This document shows positions 29,743-35,990 of a DNA stretch of 64,000 nucleotides, in pieces. Made by a program: the position numbers and the translations under genes. The first letter of the stretch is position 1. Each line of letters opens with the position of its first letter. The notes below the pieces were generated by a model. It searched no databases. It was not told where the DNA came from and worked only from the letters and a program-made list of their open reading frames with translations. The stretch comes from Ruegeria sp. HKCCSA071 (lineage in GTDB: Bacteria; Pseudomonadota; Alphaproteobacteria; Rhodobacterales; Rhodobacteraceae). The stretch covers positions 434,001 to 498,000 of the forward strand of contig NZ_JAEDOX010000001.1 of NCBI RefSeq assembly GCF_017872555.1, written 5' to 3'.

Positions 29743-29789
29743 ATACGTCAGATTGTATGAGCCGAAGAAATTGCCACAATATCTGGTGT
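29743..29789. promoter_or_regulatory. Pair of NrdR-box-like sites upstream of nrdJ
   Basis: CCACAATATCTGGTGT (29774-29789) closely resembles the NrdR consensus acaCwAtATaTwgtgt. A weaker copy, ATACGTCAGATTGTAT (29743-29758), is centred exactly 31 bp upstream, with 15 bp between the sites. Paired boxes three helical turns apart are the known NrdR architecture on ribonucleotide reductase promoters. Confidence 0.7.
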
Positions 29790-29840
29790 TCAAGCTGGGA
29801 CGGTAACGGGCGAGGGTCGGATACGCACAGTCTAATGTCG

Positions 29841-29880
29841 TGCAGCCGTAGTGACGGCTTTTTCGCTGCACAAAGCAGCG
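29841..29880 (+). promoter_or_regulatory. Mutually exclusive hairpins in the nrdJ leader
   Basis: AGCCGT (29844-29849) pairs with ACGGCT (29854-29859), followed by TTTT, like a short intrinsic terminator. CGCTGC (29864-29869) pairs with GCAGCG (29875-29880). TGCAGC (29841-29846) could instead pair with GCTGCA (29865-29870). The competing pairings resemble an attenuator, but function is not shown. Confidence 0.4.
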
Positions 29881-29985
29881 ACCTGTACCTTTGTGCGCTT
29901 CTGTCGGCGTTGCGGTGGTGCTCCGCAACTCAATATGAAGTGCCGTGAACCGAAAACTGGGCGGAATTTAACTAGGGCTGCGGAC

Positions 29986-32900
29986 ATGAAGATTGAAAGA
30001 AAATTCACCAAACCAGGTCAGGATGCCTATTCAGAACTGGATTTTGTGTCCGCTACGTCTGAAATCCGCAATCCTGATGGAACCATTGTATTCCGTCTGG
30101 AAGGGATCGAAGTTCCATCACCCTGGTCGCAGGTGGCAAGTGACGTAATCGCCCAGAAGTACTTTCGCAAAGCTGGTGTTCCGTCCAAACTGAAGAAAGT
30201 TAAGGAAAAAGACGTACCCGAATTCCTTTGGCGGTCGGTTCCCGCTGAAAATGCTGAATTCGAGGGCGAGACTTCCTCCAAGCAGGTCTTTGACCGACTG
30301 GCCGGTGCGTGGGCATACTGGGGATGGAAAGGTGGTTACTTTTCTACCGAGGAGGATGCGCGCGCCTATTTTGACGAGATGCGGTACATGCTGGCGACCC
30401 AGCGCGCCGCGCCAAATAGCCCGCAATGGTTCAACACTGGCCTGCACTGGGCCTATGGGATCGACGGTCCGGCGCAAGGGCACCACTATGTCGACTTCAA
30501 AACCGGCAAACTGACCAAATCCAAGTCCGCCTACGAGCATCCGCAGCCGCACGCGTGTTTCATTCAGTCTGTCGATGATGATCTGGTGAACGAAGGCGGC
30601 ATCATGGATCTGTGGGTGCGCGAGGCGCGCCTGTTCAAATACGGCTCGGGCACCGGGACCAACTTCAGCCATCTGCGGGCCGAAGGCGAGGCACTGTCGG
30701 GTGGTGGCAAATCCTCGGGCCTGATGGGCTTTCTAAAGATCGGCGACCGCGCCGCCGGCGCGATCAAATCAGGCGGGACAACCCGTCGGGCAGCAAAGAT
30801 GGTTATTGTCGATGCGGATCACCCCGACATCGAACAATTCATCGAATGGAAGGTGATCGAAGAGCAGAAAGTGGCCTCGATCGTTGCCGGATCGAAGATG
30901 CACGAGAAGATGCTGAACGGCATCTTCGAGGCCATCCGGTCTTGGGATGGTGTCGCTGATGACGCTTATGATCCGAACAGGAACGACGCGCTGAAAAAGG
31001 CGGTTCGTGAAGCGAAAAAGGTCGCAATCCCGGAAACTTACATCAAGCGTGTCTTGGATTATGCCAAGCAGGGCCACGACAGCATCGAGTTCCCGACCTA
31101 TAATACTGACTGGGATTCGGAAGCCTATAGCTCGGTTTCGGGCCAGAACTCGAACAACTCCATCCGCGTCACCAATGCGTTTCTGACCGCTGTCGAGAAA
31201 GACGCCGATTGGGAACTGATCAACCGAACTGACGGCAAGGTCGCCAAGACGGTCAAGGCGAGGGACCTGTGGGAGAAAGTCGGCCACGCCGCTTGGGCCT
31301 GTGCCGATCCGGGCATCCAGTTCCATGACACGGTCAACGAGTGGCACACATGTCCAGAAGACGGCGAGATCCGCGGCTCAAACCCGTGCTCGGAATACAT
31401 GTTCCTCGATGACACGGCCTGTAACCTTGCCTCGATGAACTTGCTGACCTTCCTTAAGGATGGCGAGTTCCAGGCGGCGGATTATATGCATGCCTCTCGC
31501 CTGTGGACCCTGACGCTGGAAATCTCGGTGACCATGGCGCAATTCCCGTCAAAGGAAATCGCGCAACTGTCCTATGACTTCCGCACGCTGGGTCTGGGTT
31601 ATGCCAATATCGGCGGTCTGCTGATGAACATGGGCTACAGCTATGACTCGGATGAGGGCCGGGCGATCTGCGGCGCACTGACCGCGATCATGACCGGTGT
31701 GGCCTACGCGACCTCGGCTGAGATTGCGGGGGAGCTGGGTCCGTTCAAAGGCTATGAGCGCAACGCCGAGCATATGCTGCGCGTCATCCGCAACCACCGC
31801 CGCGCGGCGCAAGGCGTGACCGACGGGTATGAGAAACTGGCCGTCAAGCCCGTGCCTCTGGACCATGGTAACTGCCCCGACAAGCGTCTGGTCGATCTGG
31901 CCATGTCCGCTTGGGATGAGGCGCTGAGCCTTGGCGAGAAAAACGGCTACCGCAACGCACAGGCCACGGTGATTGCGCCCACCGGCACCATTGGTCTGGT
32001 GATGGATTGCGACACCACCGGGATTGAGCCAGACTTTGCTCTGGTGAAGTTCAAGAAGCTGGCCGGTGGCGGTTACTTCAAGATCATCAACCGCTCGGTC
32101 CCGTCGGCGCTGGAAAAGCTGGGCTATTCCTCGTCACAGATCGAAGAGATCGTTTCATATGCCGTTGGTCACGGCACCATCGGCAACGCGCCGGGGATTA
32201 ACCACACCTCGCTGACCGGCCACGGCTTTGGCCCGAATGAGCTGGCCAAGGTGGATGCCGCACTGGAAAGCGCATTCGACATCCGGTTCGTCTTCAACCA
32301 GTGGACACTGGGCGAAGATTTCTGCACCGGTGTTCTGGGCATTCCAGCGACCAAGCTGAATGACCCAACGTTTGATCTGCTGCGCCATCTGGGCTTTACC
32401 AAGGCGGATATCGACGCAGCGAACGATCACGTCTGCGGAACCATGACGCTGGAAGGCGCGCCGCATCTGAAGGAAGAACACTACTCGATCTTCGACTGCG
32501 CCAACCCGTGCGGAAAAAAAGGCAAGCGTTTCCTTGGGGTTGACAGCCACATCACCATGATGGCTGCGGCACAGAGCTTCATCTCGGGCGCGATCAGCAA
32601 AACGATCAACATGCCGAATGACGCGACCATCGAGGATTGCCAGAAAGCCTATGAACTCAGCTGGTCGCTGGGTGTGAAGGCCAACGCGCTCTACCGAGAC
32701 GGCTCGAAGCTATCGCAACCTCTGGCGGCAGCACTGGTCGAGGACGACGACGAGGCGGCCGAAGTGCTGGAAAGCGGCTCGGCGCAGGAAAAAGCCGTCG
32801 TTCTGGCCGAAAAAGTGATCGAAAAGGTTGTGGTCAAGGAAATGATCCGCAGCCATCGCGAGAAACTGCCGCATCGCCGCAAGGGGTATACTCAGAAGGC

Positions 32901-33606
32901 CATCGTTGGCGGCCACAAAGTGTACCTGCGCACAGGTGAGTTTGAAGACGGTCAATTGGGCGAGATTTTCATCGACATGCACAAGGAAGGCGCTGGCTTC
33001 CGGGCGATGATGAACAACTTTGCCATCGCCGTGTCGGTCGGGCTGCAATATGGCGTGCCGCTGGAGGAGTTTGTCGACGCCTTCACCTTTACCAAGTTCG
33101 AACCGGCAGGGATGGTGCAGGGCAACGACTCGATCAAGAACGCGACCTCGATCCTGGATTACATCTTTCGCGAATTGGCCGTGTCCTATCTGGACCGTAC
33201 CGATCTGGCTCATGTGAAACCCGAGGGCGCGACCTTTGATGATCTGGGCCGCGGTGAAGATGAAGGCGTTTCTAACGTTTCGGAAATCAGTGAAACTGCG
33301 GCGTCCAAGTCGTTGGAAGTGTTGAAACAAATCAGCTCGACAGGGTATCTGCGCAAGCGTCTGCCACAGGATCTGATGGTGTTAAACGGCAGTTATGGCG
33401 ACGTGGCCGGAATGTCGGAAACGGCAACTGTGTTCGAAGCGCCTGCCACCGAAACGGCAGTGGCAACCGGGATGGACGCCCGCACCAAAGCCAAGATGCA
33501 GGGCTATGAGGGCGACCCCTGTGGCGAATGCGGAAACTACACGCTGGTGCGTAACGGCACTTGCATGAAGTGCAATACCTGCGGCGCGACAAGCGGGTGT
33601 AGCTGA
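29986..33606 (+). CDS. nrdJ: Vitamin B12-dependent ribonucleoside-diphosphate reductase (class II)
   Basis: NrdJ makes deoxyribonucleotides with adenosylcobalamin as radical source, independent of oxygen. The 1206-residue protein has the RNR core with [15 protein letters not shown] near residue 140, [21 protein letters not shown] with active-site Cys, and [27 protein letters not shown] domain follows (about residues 970-1090, [15 protein letters not shown]), and the C-terminus ends in a Cys cluster, CGECGN...[13 protein letters not shown], used for thioredoxin-linked reduction. ATG 29986 has AGGG upstream and fits the family. NrdR-like boxes lie about 200 bases upstream. Confidence 0.97.
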
Positions 33607-33900
33607 CTTTAGCGCCCCGGCACCCCGGGGCGTAGGGGTCGGACGCTGCCCTAAGTAACCGACCCCGACGAATACGGAGAACAGGTCTGAGACTTACCAA
33701 GTGACCTTTCTCCACTCGGCCGACATGCCCGTGTTGGCCGGGAACAGGGTGGGGCGGAATATTTGCTCCCTCCCACTCTTTCACGGGGCGGGTGCGCTCG
33801 CCCCATGCGCAGTCCAGGCCGCAGGCAAAAAAACACCGGGCGGTCAACGAAATGAGCCTGGAAGGCGAAACTGACAGGGGGCTTCGGCCCCCTTTCTTTT
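33607..33900 (+). ncRNA. Candidate structured RNA or long structured 3' UTR downstream of nrdJ
   Basis: This stretch has no convincing reading frame but a dense series of perfect stems: GGGGTCGG (33635-33642) with CCGACCCC (33659-33666); GGAGAA+AGGTC (33676-33687) with GACCT+TTCTCC (33703-33713); a 9-bp stem 33717-33725 with 33732-33740; GGGGCG (33785-33790) with CGCCCC (33799-33804). It closes with a textbook terminator at 33876-33900. I could not match it to 6S, SRP, RNase P RNA or tmRNA. It could be an independent sRNA or the processed 3' end of nrdJ mRNA. Confidence 0.45.
33876..33900 (+). terminator. Strong intrinsic terminator
   Basis: AGGGGGC (33876-33882), a TTCG loop and GCCCCCT, then TTCTTTTTG. 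It lies 270 bases past the nrdJ stop and 250 bases before the EF-hand gene. Confidence 0.92.
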
Positions 33901-34148
33901 TGTCCTTCCGAGTCGTCCCGGATAAGCGCCACATTGCCGGATCGAGGTGGTCCTGTCGGGCAAGAGCCGCCGATACAGGTTTTGCCGGCTTCTTCAGGCG
34001 GAGGGCCGCAAACCCGACTCGGGCAAACACGCAAAGATTGGCGTGAAATCACGATACTCTACCAAAGCGCGTGACGCGCAGGGGGGCCCATGTGCTTCTG
34101 GGCGTCGTCCGGACGTAAACACAAACACACCTTTCAGGAGGCACTGAA
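33901..34148. other. Intergenic region upstream of the EF-hand gene
   Basis: About 250 bases with no supported gene. It includes a short hairpin GCGCGT/ACGCGC (34067-34079) and a strong Shine-Dalgarno AGGAGG just before the EF-hand ATG. The promoter is presumably here, but I cannot assign it. Confidence 0.4.
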
Positions 34149-34394
34149 ATGAAATCGCATTATTTGATCGGGCTTTCCATGGCCGTTCTGGGCTTGCCCG
34201 GCGTTGCTTCGGCCCAATCCTCAGCCGATACCAACGGTGATGGTCTGCTGACCATCGAGGAAATTCAGGCAGTCGTACCGGAAGTCAGCGCCGATACCTT
34301 CTCGGCCATGGATGCCAATGGTGACGGAGCGCTGGATGCAGACGAGGTCGCGATCGCGCAGGAGGCAGGATTGTTGCCGCCCAGCGACGGGTAG
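34149..34394 (+). CDS. Small secreted EF-hand protein
   Basis: An 81-residue protein with a signal peptide (cleavage expected after GVASA, residue 22) and two EF-hand loops: DTNGDGLLTIEE and DANGDGALDADE. It would bind calcium in the periplasm or outside the cell. A near-ideal TTCAGGAGG site precedes the ATG and a terminator follows, so it is a stand-alone, probably well-translated gene. Partners are unknown. Confidence 0.88.
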   Translation: MKSHYLIGLSMAVLGLPGVASAQSSADTNGDGLLTIEEIQAVVPEVSADTFSAMDANGDGALDADEVAIAQEAGLLPPSDG

Positions 34395-34445: not shown

Positions 34446-35990
34446 TTAAGCGGGAAGATGGATTTTAAATTTTTTTCGAAGTTCGGCGTCCAGAACCGGG
34501 TCGAACCTTGCTGGGGAAGGGGTGGAAAGGATTTCCTCTTTCCTTGCCACGGCTTTTTCCACCAGATCGGGCTTGCCAAGCTCAACCCACTCTTTCGGTG
34601 AGGAGCGATCTCCGTAAGTCGGATAGACGTAATCTGACTGCATCCGGCTCAGCGTTGCGTCAGTTCCCAGATAGTGGCCTGGGCCGCCCATGCATACCGC
34701 CGCCATTTGATCCAGTGCCAGCGTGTCATCCGTCACTTCGATCCCGCGTACACAGCGTTGCGCCTGTCCGATCAAATCATCGCTGAGGATCAGACTTTCC
34801 AGGCAGAACCCCAGCAACGAGGCATGCATCCCGGCTGCCTCATATACCATGTTCAGACCGGACAGACCTGCCATGACATTCGAACACATCTGTTCCCATC
34901 CGGCTTGCATATCGGGCAGTTTCGAATCCGATGCGCCAGCCGCAGCTCCGCCCGGAAGGTCGTAGAACCGGTGCATCTGGGCACATCCGGCAGTCAGAAG
35001 GGCCTGTTCCCCTGAACCGATCGACATGGCACCGGTTCGCAGGTCCAAACCAAACGGCCAGGTGCCAAAAATCGCCGGAGCACCGGGACTTACGGCATTA
35101 ACATAAACCAATCCCGCCAGGCATTCCGCAGTTGCTTGCGTGATCGCACCGGCGATGGTCGACGGCGCTGTGGCTCCGGCCATACCAGCAGATAGCAGCA
35201 AGACAGGCATTCCGGCCTTGATGCATGCTTCCATCACTTCGCAGCTTTCGGTTGCGAATTTCATTGGAGGAACAACAAAGCAGTTCGAGTTCGACACGAA
35301 GGGTCGTTCGCGAAATTTGTCTTCACCGCCCGCAATCATATAGATCATCTCCATCGCTGGAGCGACGTGGCTTGGTTCGGTGAAAGATGTCCCGATGTGT
35401 TTGAATGACCCTGAACAGCAGGCGTAAATCGTGTTGAGGTCCATTTCGAGGTTGTCCGCGATGTCACGACAGACCATTGGCCGCTGCACAAAGTGTATAT
35501 TATCAAGCTGTTGGCAGATGCGTGCGGCATCGTGCAGATCTTGCACGGTGGAATGGCGATATTCCCGACCGTGGACGTCGACCATGGACACGGCCGCTCC
35601 GGCCGTACCGTAGTGCACCTTGGTGCCCGACAGTTCCAGATCGGTGTTACCGTCCCGGCTGTACAAAGTGACTGAACGGTTCGCCTTAGCAACCGTGTCC
35701 TCGACAAGGGCACGGGGGAAACGGATACGTCCATCGTCGCCCAAGGTGCAGCCCGCACCGACCAGATAGTCAATGCCACTTTGCGGCGCGTCCGCCAGGC
35801 CAATGGTTTCAAGCGCGGTCAGTGCTGCTTCGTGGATGCGTTCGATCTGTGCCTGTGTCAGTACATTCAGGACGCCGCCTTCCATTCCGGGGCGGACAGG
35901 TCGCAGGTGCTCGGGCAGTGCAGTTGCACGGGCAGCTCGGCGCGCGGCACGGCCGCCACTGCGCGAAGAATTGCGGGGTTGGTCGTTCAT
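34446..35990 (-). CDS. MttB-family (trimethylamine/glycine betaine-type) corrinoid methyltransferase without pyrrolysine
   Basis: A 514-residue TIM-barrel methyltransferase of the MttB superfamily. It has a basic N-terminal stretch (RSGGRAARRAARA), then VLTQAQIERIHEAALTALETIG, FTEPSHVAPAMEM, and AIFGTWPFGLDLRTGAMSIGSGEQAL. The reading frame is continuous with no in-frame TAG, so it is not a pyrrolysine enzyme; such relatives include glycine betaine methyltransferase MtgB. It would move a methyl group from a quaternary amine to a corrinoid protein, for which the 7493-8191 product is a candidate. Substrate is not predictable. An inverted repeat lies 30 bases upstream. Confidence 0.9.
   Translation of the reverse strand: MNDQPRNSSRSGGRAARRAARATALPEHLRPVRPGMEGGVLNVLTQAQIERIHEAALTALETIGLADAPQSGIDYLVGAGCTLGDDGRIRFPRALVEDTVAKANRSVTLYSRDGNTDLELSGTKVHYGTAGAAVSMVDVHGREYRHSTVQDLHDAARICQQLDNIHFVQRPMVCRDIADNLEMDLNTIYACCSGSFKHIGTSFTEPSHVAPAMEMIYMIAGGEDKFRERPFVSNSNCFVVPPMKFATESCEVMEACIKAGMPVLLLSAGMAGATAPSTIAGAITQATAECLAGLVYVNAVSPGAPAIFGTWPFGLDLRTGAMSIGSGEQALLTAGCAQMHRFYDLPGGAAAGASDSKLPDMQAGWEQMCSNVMAGLSGLNMVYEAAGMHASLLGFCLESLILSDDLIGQAQRCVRGIEVTDDTLALDQMAAVCMGGPGHYLGTDATLSRMQSDYVYPTYGDRSSPKEWVELGKPDLVEKAVARKEEILSTPSPARFDPVLDAELRKKFKIHLPA

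Follow-up and report, generated by a model that had tools for sequence, protein, structure and literature searches.

A conserved structured RNA at the end of nrdJ messages in Rhodobacteraceae, a candidate 3'-UTR-derived regulatory RNA

What is the nature of the densely structured DNA stretch that directly follows the ribonucleotide reductase gene nrdJ in Ruegeria sp. HKCCSA071? NrdJ is a reductase of class II, a vitamin B12-dependent type, and produces the precursors of DNA; bacteria of this family, the Rhodobacteraceae, are common in the sea. A first-pass annotation, made from the sequence alone, proposed that this stretch could encode a small RNA (sRNA), either an unnamed one or one derived from the 3' UTR of nrdJ. 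Here we address this proposal by comparative analysis of the region within a 64,000-nucleotide segment of the genome (contig NZ_JAEDOX010000001.1, positions 434,001 to 498,000, forward strand; hereafter, the window, in whose numbering all positions are given).

Structure and conservation of the region behind nrdJ

The plus strand of positions 33607-33900 (294 nt) folds with a minimum free energy (MFE) of −147.4 kcal/mol, compared to −115.9 ± 5.3 kcal/mol for 200 dinucleotide shuffles, none of which (0/200) folded as well (z = −5.96); together with the presence of an intrinsic terminator, this bears out the description of these positions, in the first-pass annotation, as a terminator-capped structured RNA region behind nrdJ. 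The four strong stems counted there are too few: the MFE fold consists of five hairpins (H1-H5), a sixth, a long stem and the terminator (Table 1). Likewise, H3 does contain the 11 pairs ascribed to it, but these are not uninterrupted, being split 6 + 5 by the one-base bulge C33682. Its loop contains the motif CUUACC, invariant across the 54 genomes of the genus, and within the same set H5, unlike H1-H4, shows no two-sided changes. The terminator stem spans 33876-33893 and is followed by the T-rich TTCTTTTTGT. By “core” we denote the 3' part of the region (33779-33902), in which hairpin A and stem B, about 90 nt together, sit directly on the terminator. Judging from the fold and the gene order, 33607-33902 is a structured stretch that follows the nrdJ stop codon (33604-33606) and ends in the predicted nrdJ terminator. 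Mechanically called open reading frames overlap 33607-33900 on both strands; two antisense ones, the only two compared with Pfam, produced no match, and the changes in loop length seen in the alignments are not multiples of three, which argues against a conserved reading frame.

Table 1. Positions of nrdJ, the elements of the RNA and the mttB-like gene in the window.
Feature	Positions	Strand	Evidence
nrdJ, class II (adenosylcobalamin-dependent) ribonucleotide reductase	29851-33606	+	Pfam PF02867 (8e-123), PF08471 (1.9e-41)
Hairpin H1 (GCGCCCCGG/CCGGGGCGU type)	33612-33633	+	MFE fold; two-sided pair changes within the genus
Hairpin H2 (AGGGG...CCCC, then GACGA)	33635-33666	+	MFE fold; two-sided changes, 54 genomes
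Hairpin H3, 11 pairs, one bulge	33676-33713	+	MFE fold; two-sided changes within the genus
Hairpin H4, 12 pairs, CCCG loop	33715-33742	+	MFE fold; two-sided changes within the genus
Hairpin H5 (GGGUGGGGCGGA...UCCCUCCCACUC)	33746-33779	+	MFE fold
Core hairpin A (GGGGCGGG-UGCG-CUCGCCCC)	33785-33804	+	8/8 pairs with two-sided changes; pairing in 99.7% of cells
Core stem B, enclosing the conserved CGCAGGCA...CGGGCGGU...GAGC loop, then AAACU	33808-33867	+	10/11 pairs with two-sided changes
Intrinsic terminator and U tract closing the RNA	33876-33903	+	7/7 pairs with two-sided changes, 75 sequences
mttB-like gene	34446-35990	−	Pfam MTTB

Covariation was assessed in an alignment of 75 cores from 72 genera (the best-scoring loci and 20 weaker ones picked by hand; four rows come from Ruegeria). 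In the structure-fitted version of this alignment, 96.6% of the cells pair and 25 of the 31 pairs include two-sided changes; the 210 two-sided cells compare to a shuffle mean of 38.6 and to 19-42 cells when the pairing partner is slid. Because this alignment had been fitted to the structure, the count was repeated on a plain MAFFT alignment, in which 94.8% of the cells are paired and 24 of the 31 pairs account for 191 two-sided cells (shuffle mean 44.6, with 56 the largest value among 200 shuffles); RNAalifold recovered 25 of the 31 pairs de novo from the same alignment. The structure, that is, hairpin A, stem B and the terminator, is supported by covariation, so that the check by which the first-pass annotation would have its RNA judged comes out in favor of the RNA, with two-sided pair changes above the controls both within the genus and across the 75 cores. 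The inner helix (5 pairs, CGC/GCG and GG/CC) shows no two-sided changes in the 75 cores.

Several unpaired bases are conserved as well. The UGCG loop of hairpin A is kept in 73 of the 75 rows; in the loop of stem B, CGCAGGCA is found in 70/75, CAGGCR in all 75 and GCGAAACU in 59/75 rows, and a nearby GGU is conserved. Pairing of the UGCG loop with CGCA was considered and is not supported, given that three loci (L121, L122 and L127) change one side without compensation; both sides hardly vary, which places this pairing beyond the reach of covariation. A hammerhead-like reading of UGA..GAAAC was dropped: the hammerhead needs CUGANGA, which is absent from the core alignment.

Within Ruegeria, the core is under more constraint than the third codon positions of nrdJ. 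Mean pairwise identity (46 of the 54 genus sequences) is 0.936 in the core, 0.916 in the terminator and 0.816 in the 5' domain, and drops to 0.522 over the 80 nt past the U tract (0.448 if gaps are counted as mismatches); for the last 44 codons of nrdJ, it is 0.714 at third positions, with a protein identity of 0.991 (51 of the 54 sequences). Codon figures calculated from 46 sequences (0.72 for all positions, 0.558 for third positions) were set aside because of indel misalignment.

The hairpins in front of the core are less uniform. Among the 57 loci in which at least 50 nt separate nrdJ from the core (four of them from Ruegeria), an H2-like pattern is found in 25 and an H5-like pattern also in 25, with means of 0.0 and 0.1, respectively, in mononucleotide shuffles; in 22 of the latter 25 loci, the H5-like pattern ends 1-2 nt ahead of the core model. 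Thus, H1-H5 are extra hairpins that precede the core in Ruegeria and of which some recur in other genera: the upstream part of the RNA is modular and the core fixed.

Distribution and genomic context

A search by DNA similarity detected the region or a part of it in 60 of the 101 genomes of relatives, namely all 54 genomes of the genus Ruegeria, five further members of the family and one genome from beyond it, in which the match comprises 30 nt, the terminator alone. For a wider search, a covariance model of the core (R1; 33779-33902) was built from 27 sequences. With stricter filters, which miss weak matches and were used for the family-, order- and class-wide searches alike, R1 detected the core in 233 of the 345 family genomes (one per genus, two from the own genus), that is, in 232 of the 344 genera, and in 211 of the 302 good genomes. 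Hence the core is conserved in some two thirds of the family's sampled genera. In the order sample, 97 of the 121 genomes were positive, every one of them from the Rhodobacteraceae; in the class sample, 5 of the 337 genomes were positive, all five from the same family, and none was found outside it. A pattern scan of named genomes yielded at least 119 stretches; the titles of the 80 listed name Rhodobacteraceae, Paracoccaceae, Rhodobacterales or genera that include Ruegeria, Sulfitobacter, Shimia, Celeribacter, Roseovarius and Litoreibacter, except for two metagenome-assembled genomes labeled only Alphaproteobacteria. There were no exact matches to the pattern among viral contigs, and among plasmid and phage records 18 gave short matches (19-28% of the query), 17 of these to the terminator end.

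In the loci examined, the RNA almost always lies behind nrdJ. In the 75 cores and the few further loci that were inspected among the 233 R1-positive genomes, nrdJ adjoins the RNA in 70/70 loci tested first, lies upstream on the same strand in 75/75 cores (the two sets overlap) and is also found beside the RNA in 11 of 12 further loci picked for weak or double matches. The distance between the nrdJ stop codon and the core ranges from 1 to 680 nt in the 75 loci, with a median of 111 nt, and is at most 4 nt in 10 of them, whereas the terminator always lies within a few bases of the core. Terminator-like sites were detected in 2 of 57 nrdJ-core gaps; the same detector found 56 of the 75 core terminators, so that it presumably also misses some sites in the gaps. 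The −10-like motif TANNNT occurs just ahead of the core in 1 of the 75 loci compared to 7.4 in shuffles, that is, less often than expected by chance, although this motif is a weak test for alphaproteobacterial promoters. The longest downstream open reading frame shares the strand of the RNA in 30 of the 75 loci and has the opposite orientation in 45. Taken together, the adjacency to nrdJ, the composition of the gap, the terminator, the scarcity of TANNNT and the strands of the downstream frames suggest that the element closes the nrdJ transcript and does not serve as the leader of the next gene.

Some of the large gaps contain small same-strand open reading frames located directly behind nrdJ. 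Pfam identifies these gap genes as M78/IrrE-like in three loci (L055, L080 and L132) and as DUF2188 in another (L106); by eye, a similar HEIAH frame is seen in L157. The 3' end of nrdJ thus looks like a cargo slot. In two loci, the last ~25 codons of nrdJ are duplicated behind the inserted small gene (L157, 207-829; L166, 285-649), as if, judging from this arrangement, the insertion had carried its own nrdJ end.

The RNA is missing from some genomes that have nrdJ. Among the 112 R1-negative family genomes, 80 were checked, and 68 of these produced a strong nrdJ match (>340 bits). In 40 nrdJ downstream regions taken from these 68 genomes (two of which, L162 and L165, are short contig ends), the core was absent or decayed in all 40. 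Two of these regions contain weak sense-strand matches (L176, 27.3 bits; L140, 24.8 bits) that look like decayed cores, and the other 38 have no sense-strand match at an E-value of 0.001. The RNA is therefore dispensable in some lineages, having been lost or never gained in some that keep nrdJ. A link to a backup class I reductase was considered and rejected, given that the class I small subunit (PF00268) is found in 6 of 64 genomes without the RNA and in 5 of 64 with it; because this subunit was not found in over 90% of these 128 genomes, nrdJ probably encodes the main aerobic reductase in these bacteria.

R1 gives a single listed match in all but three of the 233 positive genomes. In G332 (C15:141770-142061; L082, L325 and L326), two weak, overlapping extra matches of 33.5 bits each come right after the main core and may represent a partial tandem repeat. 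In G397 (88% complete, 4% contamination), both copies follow an nrdJ. In G348, the copy behind nrdJ scores 104.3 bits and the second copy (L324, C315:269-386), which lies on a short contig and has no nrdJ in the 268 nt available upstream to the contig start, is decayed (33.7 bits); by eye, an H5-like hairpin precedes this decayed core. A further genome, G762 from the order sample, carries two good copies that share a contig and score 91.9 and 90.4 bits; one of them (L306) lies behind nrdJ, and the other (L305) lacks an adjacent nrdJ. The displaced copy comes after genes for Tn7-like TniQ, TniB and an rve-domain transposase; downstream of it, a gene for an AsnC-type regulator lies on the other strand. 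The two copies are 83% identical, with the displaced one slightly closer to the version found in a sister species (84% compared to 81%), and both keep stem B with differing sequences (GGCCAAGC/GCUUGGCU and GGCCUUGC/GCAAGGUC), each with compensating base pairs of its own. They would flank about 37 kb if the contig is circular. The same segment (L305, L306, L317 and L318) includes two copies of a Mutator-type transposase gene, with the contig end within the second. We read this arrangement as the trace of an element that may have inserted behind nrdJ, carrying a substitute RNA with it, which would suggest that loss of the RNA is costly. Altogether, in the examined loci, the core is behind nrdJ except for the displaced intact copy in G762 and the decayed copy in G348.

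Possible functions of the RNA

In bacteria, 3'-UTR-derived sRNAs come from the end of an mRNA and consist of compact stem-loops closed by an intrinsic terminator with a U tail; they act by pairing with their targets, in most cases with Hfq or ProQ. The RNA described here, known from sequence alone, has in common with them the mRNA-end position, the stem-loops and the terminator with a U tail, and by position and sequence it closes the nrdJ mRNA, together with the terminator of that mRNA. The reading that we put first, with a probability of roughly 0.47, is that the core is a 3'-UTR-derived regulatory RNA of the nrdJ transcript; this preference comes from the position of the core, which is tied to the terminator rather than to the stop codon, from its conserved unpaired bases and from its size, which is that of an sRNA. 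The sRNA proposal of the first-pass annotation thus persists as a conserved, terminator-ended nrdJ 3'-UTR RNA, and its other form, an independently transcribed sRNA gene, is less likely because no promoter-like element was seen before the core. Under the preferred reading, RNA polymerase would start at the nrdJ promoter, read through nrdJ and any inserted small gene, enter the RNA element and halt at its terminator; the 3' part of the message would then be used as a regulatory RNA of about 120 nt, either released from the 3' UTR or acting as a 3' UTR. The unpaired UGCG loop, AGGCA and the A-rich loop, GGU and GAAACU could provide the contact surface for target mRNAs or for a protein, and the dose of the regulatory RNA would track nrdJ transcription. 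The conserved unpaired bases suit a protein- or ligand-binding element equally well. An unlikely but conceivable extension is that an RNA cut from the nrdJ message links the provision of DNA precursors with other functions of the cell in Rhodobacteraceae and is important enough for a mobile element that lands behind nrdJ to supply a replacement copy. More generally, a conserved RNA that ends its messages would place a central enzyme under an extra layer of control.

Almost as likely as a 3'-UTR-derived sRNA is a cis-acting element that safeguards or modulates the 3' end of the nrdJ message, through decay, processing or translation; no separate sRNA would be involved, and the effect would be confined to the transcript of which the element is part. 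Such a role accords with the presence of nrdJ upstream of the core in 75/75 loci and with the fate of the additional copies: in G762, nrdJ still has an intact copy behind it despite the displaced second copy, and in G348 the copy without a visible nrdJ is the one that decayed. It also accords with the lack of a detectable class I small subunit in 58 of 64 genomes without the RNA and 59 of 64 with it. However, the conserved loop bases exceed the needs of a stabilizing hairpin, the distance from the nrdJ stop codon is free, and a search for coevolving contacts of the nrdJ leader with the core was negative: in 51 loci, cognate leader and 3'-UTR pairs were no better than mismatched ones, with 748 of 2000 permutations as good (390 of 2000 for the start-codon region), so that this pairing was discarded.

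Improbable in our assessment is a ligand-sensing RNA, responsive, for example, to adenosylcobalamin or a nucleotide, located in the 3' UTR or serving as an attenuator of the downstream gene. A conserved loop within a covarying stem beside a terminator does resemble terminator-linked aptamers, and the enzyme encoded upstream belongs, by its Pfam match, to a B12-dependent class. Against this, neither a cobalamin riboswitch nor any other riboswitch was matched in the window or in 18 further loci, and the downstream gene is not conserved; an attenuator for that gene is rejected given the lack of strand conservation (30 versus 45 of the 75 loci).

A strong terminator accompanied by ordinary stem-loops and conserved by chance or recent ancestry is very unlikely: terminators behind genes are common, and the core does end in one, but the fold stands out from shuffled sequences (z −5.96), core identity (0.936) exceeds that of nrdJ third positions (0.714) and of the sequence past the U tract (0.522), the covariation extends over 72 genera, and the loop bases are strongly conserved. 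A misread housekeeping RNA such as 6S RNA or tmRNA, with which the length, GC content and single copy would fit, can be dismissed with near certainty, given that no Rfam family matches at 33607-33900 and that a genome-wide look for 6S RNA and tmRNA located a 6S candidate (32.7 bits, below the cut-off of 46.4) and an alpha tmRNA (301.5 bits) elsewhere in the genome.

Known RNAs and other features of the window

At the gathering cut-offs of Rfam 15, no family was reached at 33607-33900, nor in 18 distinct related loci scanned with permissive filters, in agreement with the earlier impression that the RNA matches no known family. The best sub-threshold match there is CrcZ (17.7 bits, cut-off 95, E = 0.018). 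Together with BjrC80 (17.4 bits, cut-off 80), suhB/mmgR (15, cut-off 41), Atu_C8 (29.3, cut-off 50) and sraL (19.9, cut-off 39), it belongs to a set of weak matches that take in the terminator end and all fall far under their cut-offs. In one locus (L096, E = 0.05), the Atu_C8 match extends over the entire core; because the other 17 loci scanned lack it, we take this match to be due to chance.

Another structured RNA associated with nrdJ has been reported, the nrdJ RNA motif, a candidate found by Rfam search within operons of Streptomyces ambofaciens (PMC8388888). The present RNA differs in that it lies behind nrdJ in Rhodobacteraceae and not, as that report describes for the motif, inside Streptomyces operons; the model of the motif, whose presence in the Rfam library we take from the same report, gave no match in 33400-34200 (E ≤ 10), in ten loci (E ≤ 1) or in nine loci (E ≤ 10). 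A parallel in type is the Polynucleobacter motif HRC-28-1, with six stems, the last of which is an apparent intrinsic terminator, for which the authors propose a 3'-UTR RNA of the upstream gene (PMC8632094); compared by description only, it is of the terminator-ended 3'-UTR type seen here, at another gene in other bacteria. The same source describes two motifs of the Rhodobacterales, HRC-8-4 and uORFC-8-2, neither of which lies at nrdJ: they are located at the cco operons or hvrB and upstream of cysS. Both come from the same order as the present RNA, and HRC-8-4 is, as here, a structured RNA linked to a terminator. The numbering used by Brewer et al. 2021 implies further HRC-8 motifs beyond the main text (PMC8632094). 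The main texts of studies on Ruegeria sRNAs (PMC4809877) and Paracoccus sRNAs (PMC5107571) do not mention nrdJ, nor is it named in the main text of PMC8632094, PMC2864571 or PMC6429828. As far as Rfam and the main-text literature go, the RNA is probably undescribed, although supplements may list it; Rfam would gain a ready-made family with covariation support.

Several other features of the window deserve mention. By translation and alignment with relatives, the true start of nrdJ is probably the ATG at 29986 (MKIERKF...). An Rfam match to PYLIS_3 at 34835-34934 on the minus strand (42.8 bits, cut-off 38) lies within the mttB-like gene; the frame of this gene is open without an amber codon, so that the match probably reflects coding similarity and not pyrrolysine insertion. 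Between the RNA and the mttB-like gene, there is a short gene for an EF-hand protein (34149-34394, plus strand), which tblastn, at the threshold applied, detected in 49 of the 54 Ruegeria loci; some of these loci are short stretches. Upstream of nrdJ, at 29746-29790, there are two motifs, ATACGTCAGATTGTAT and CCACAATATCTGGTGT, both kept among the relatives, which look like a candidate pair of NrdR boxes.
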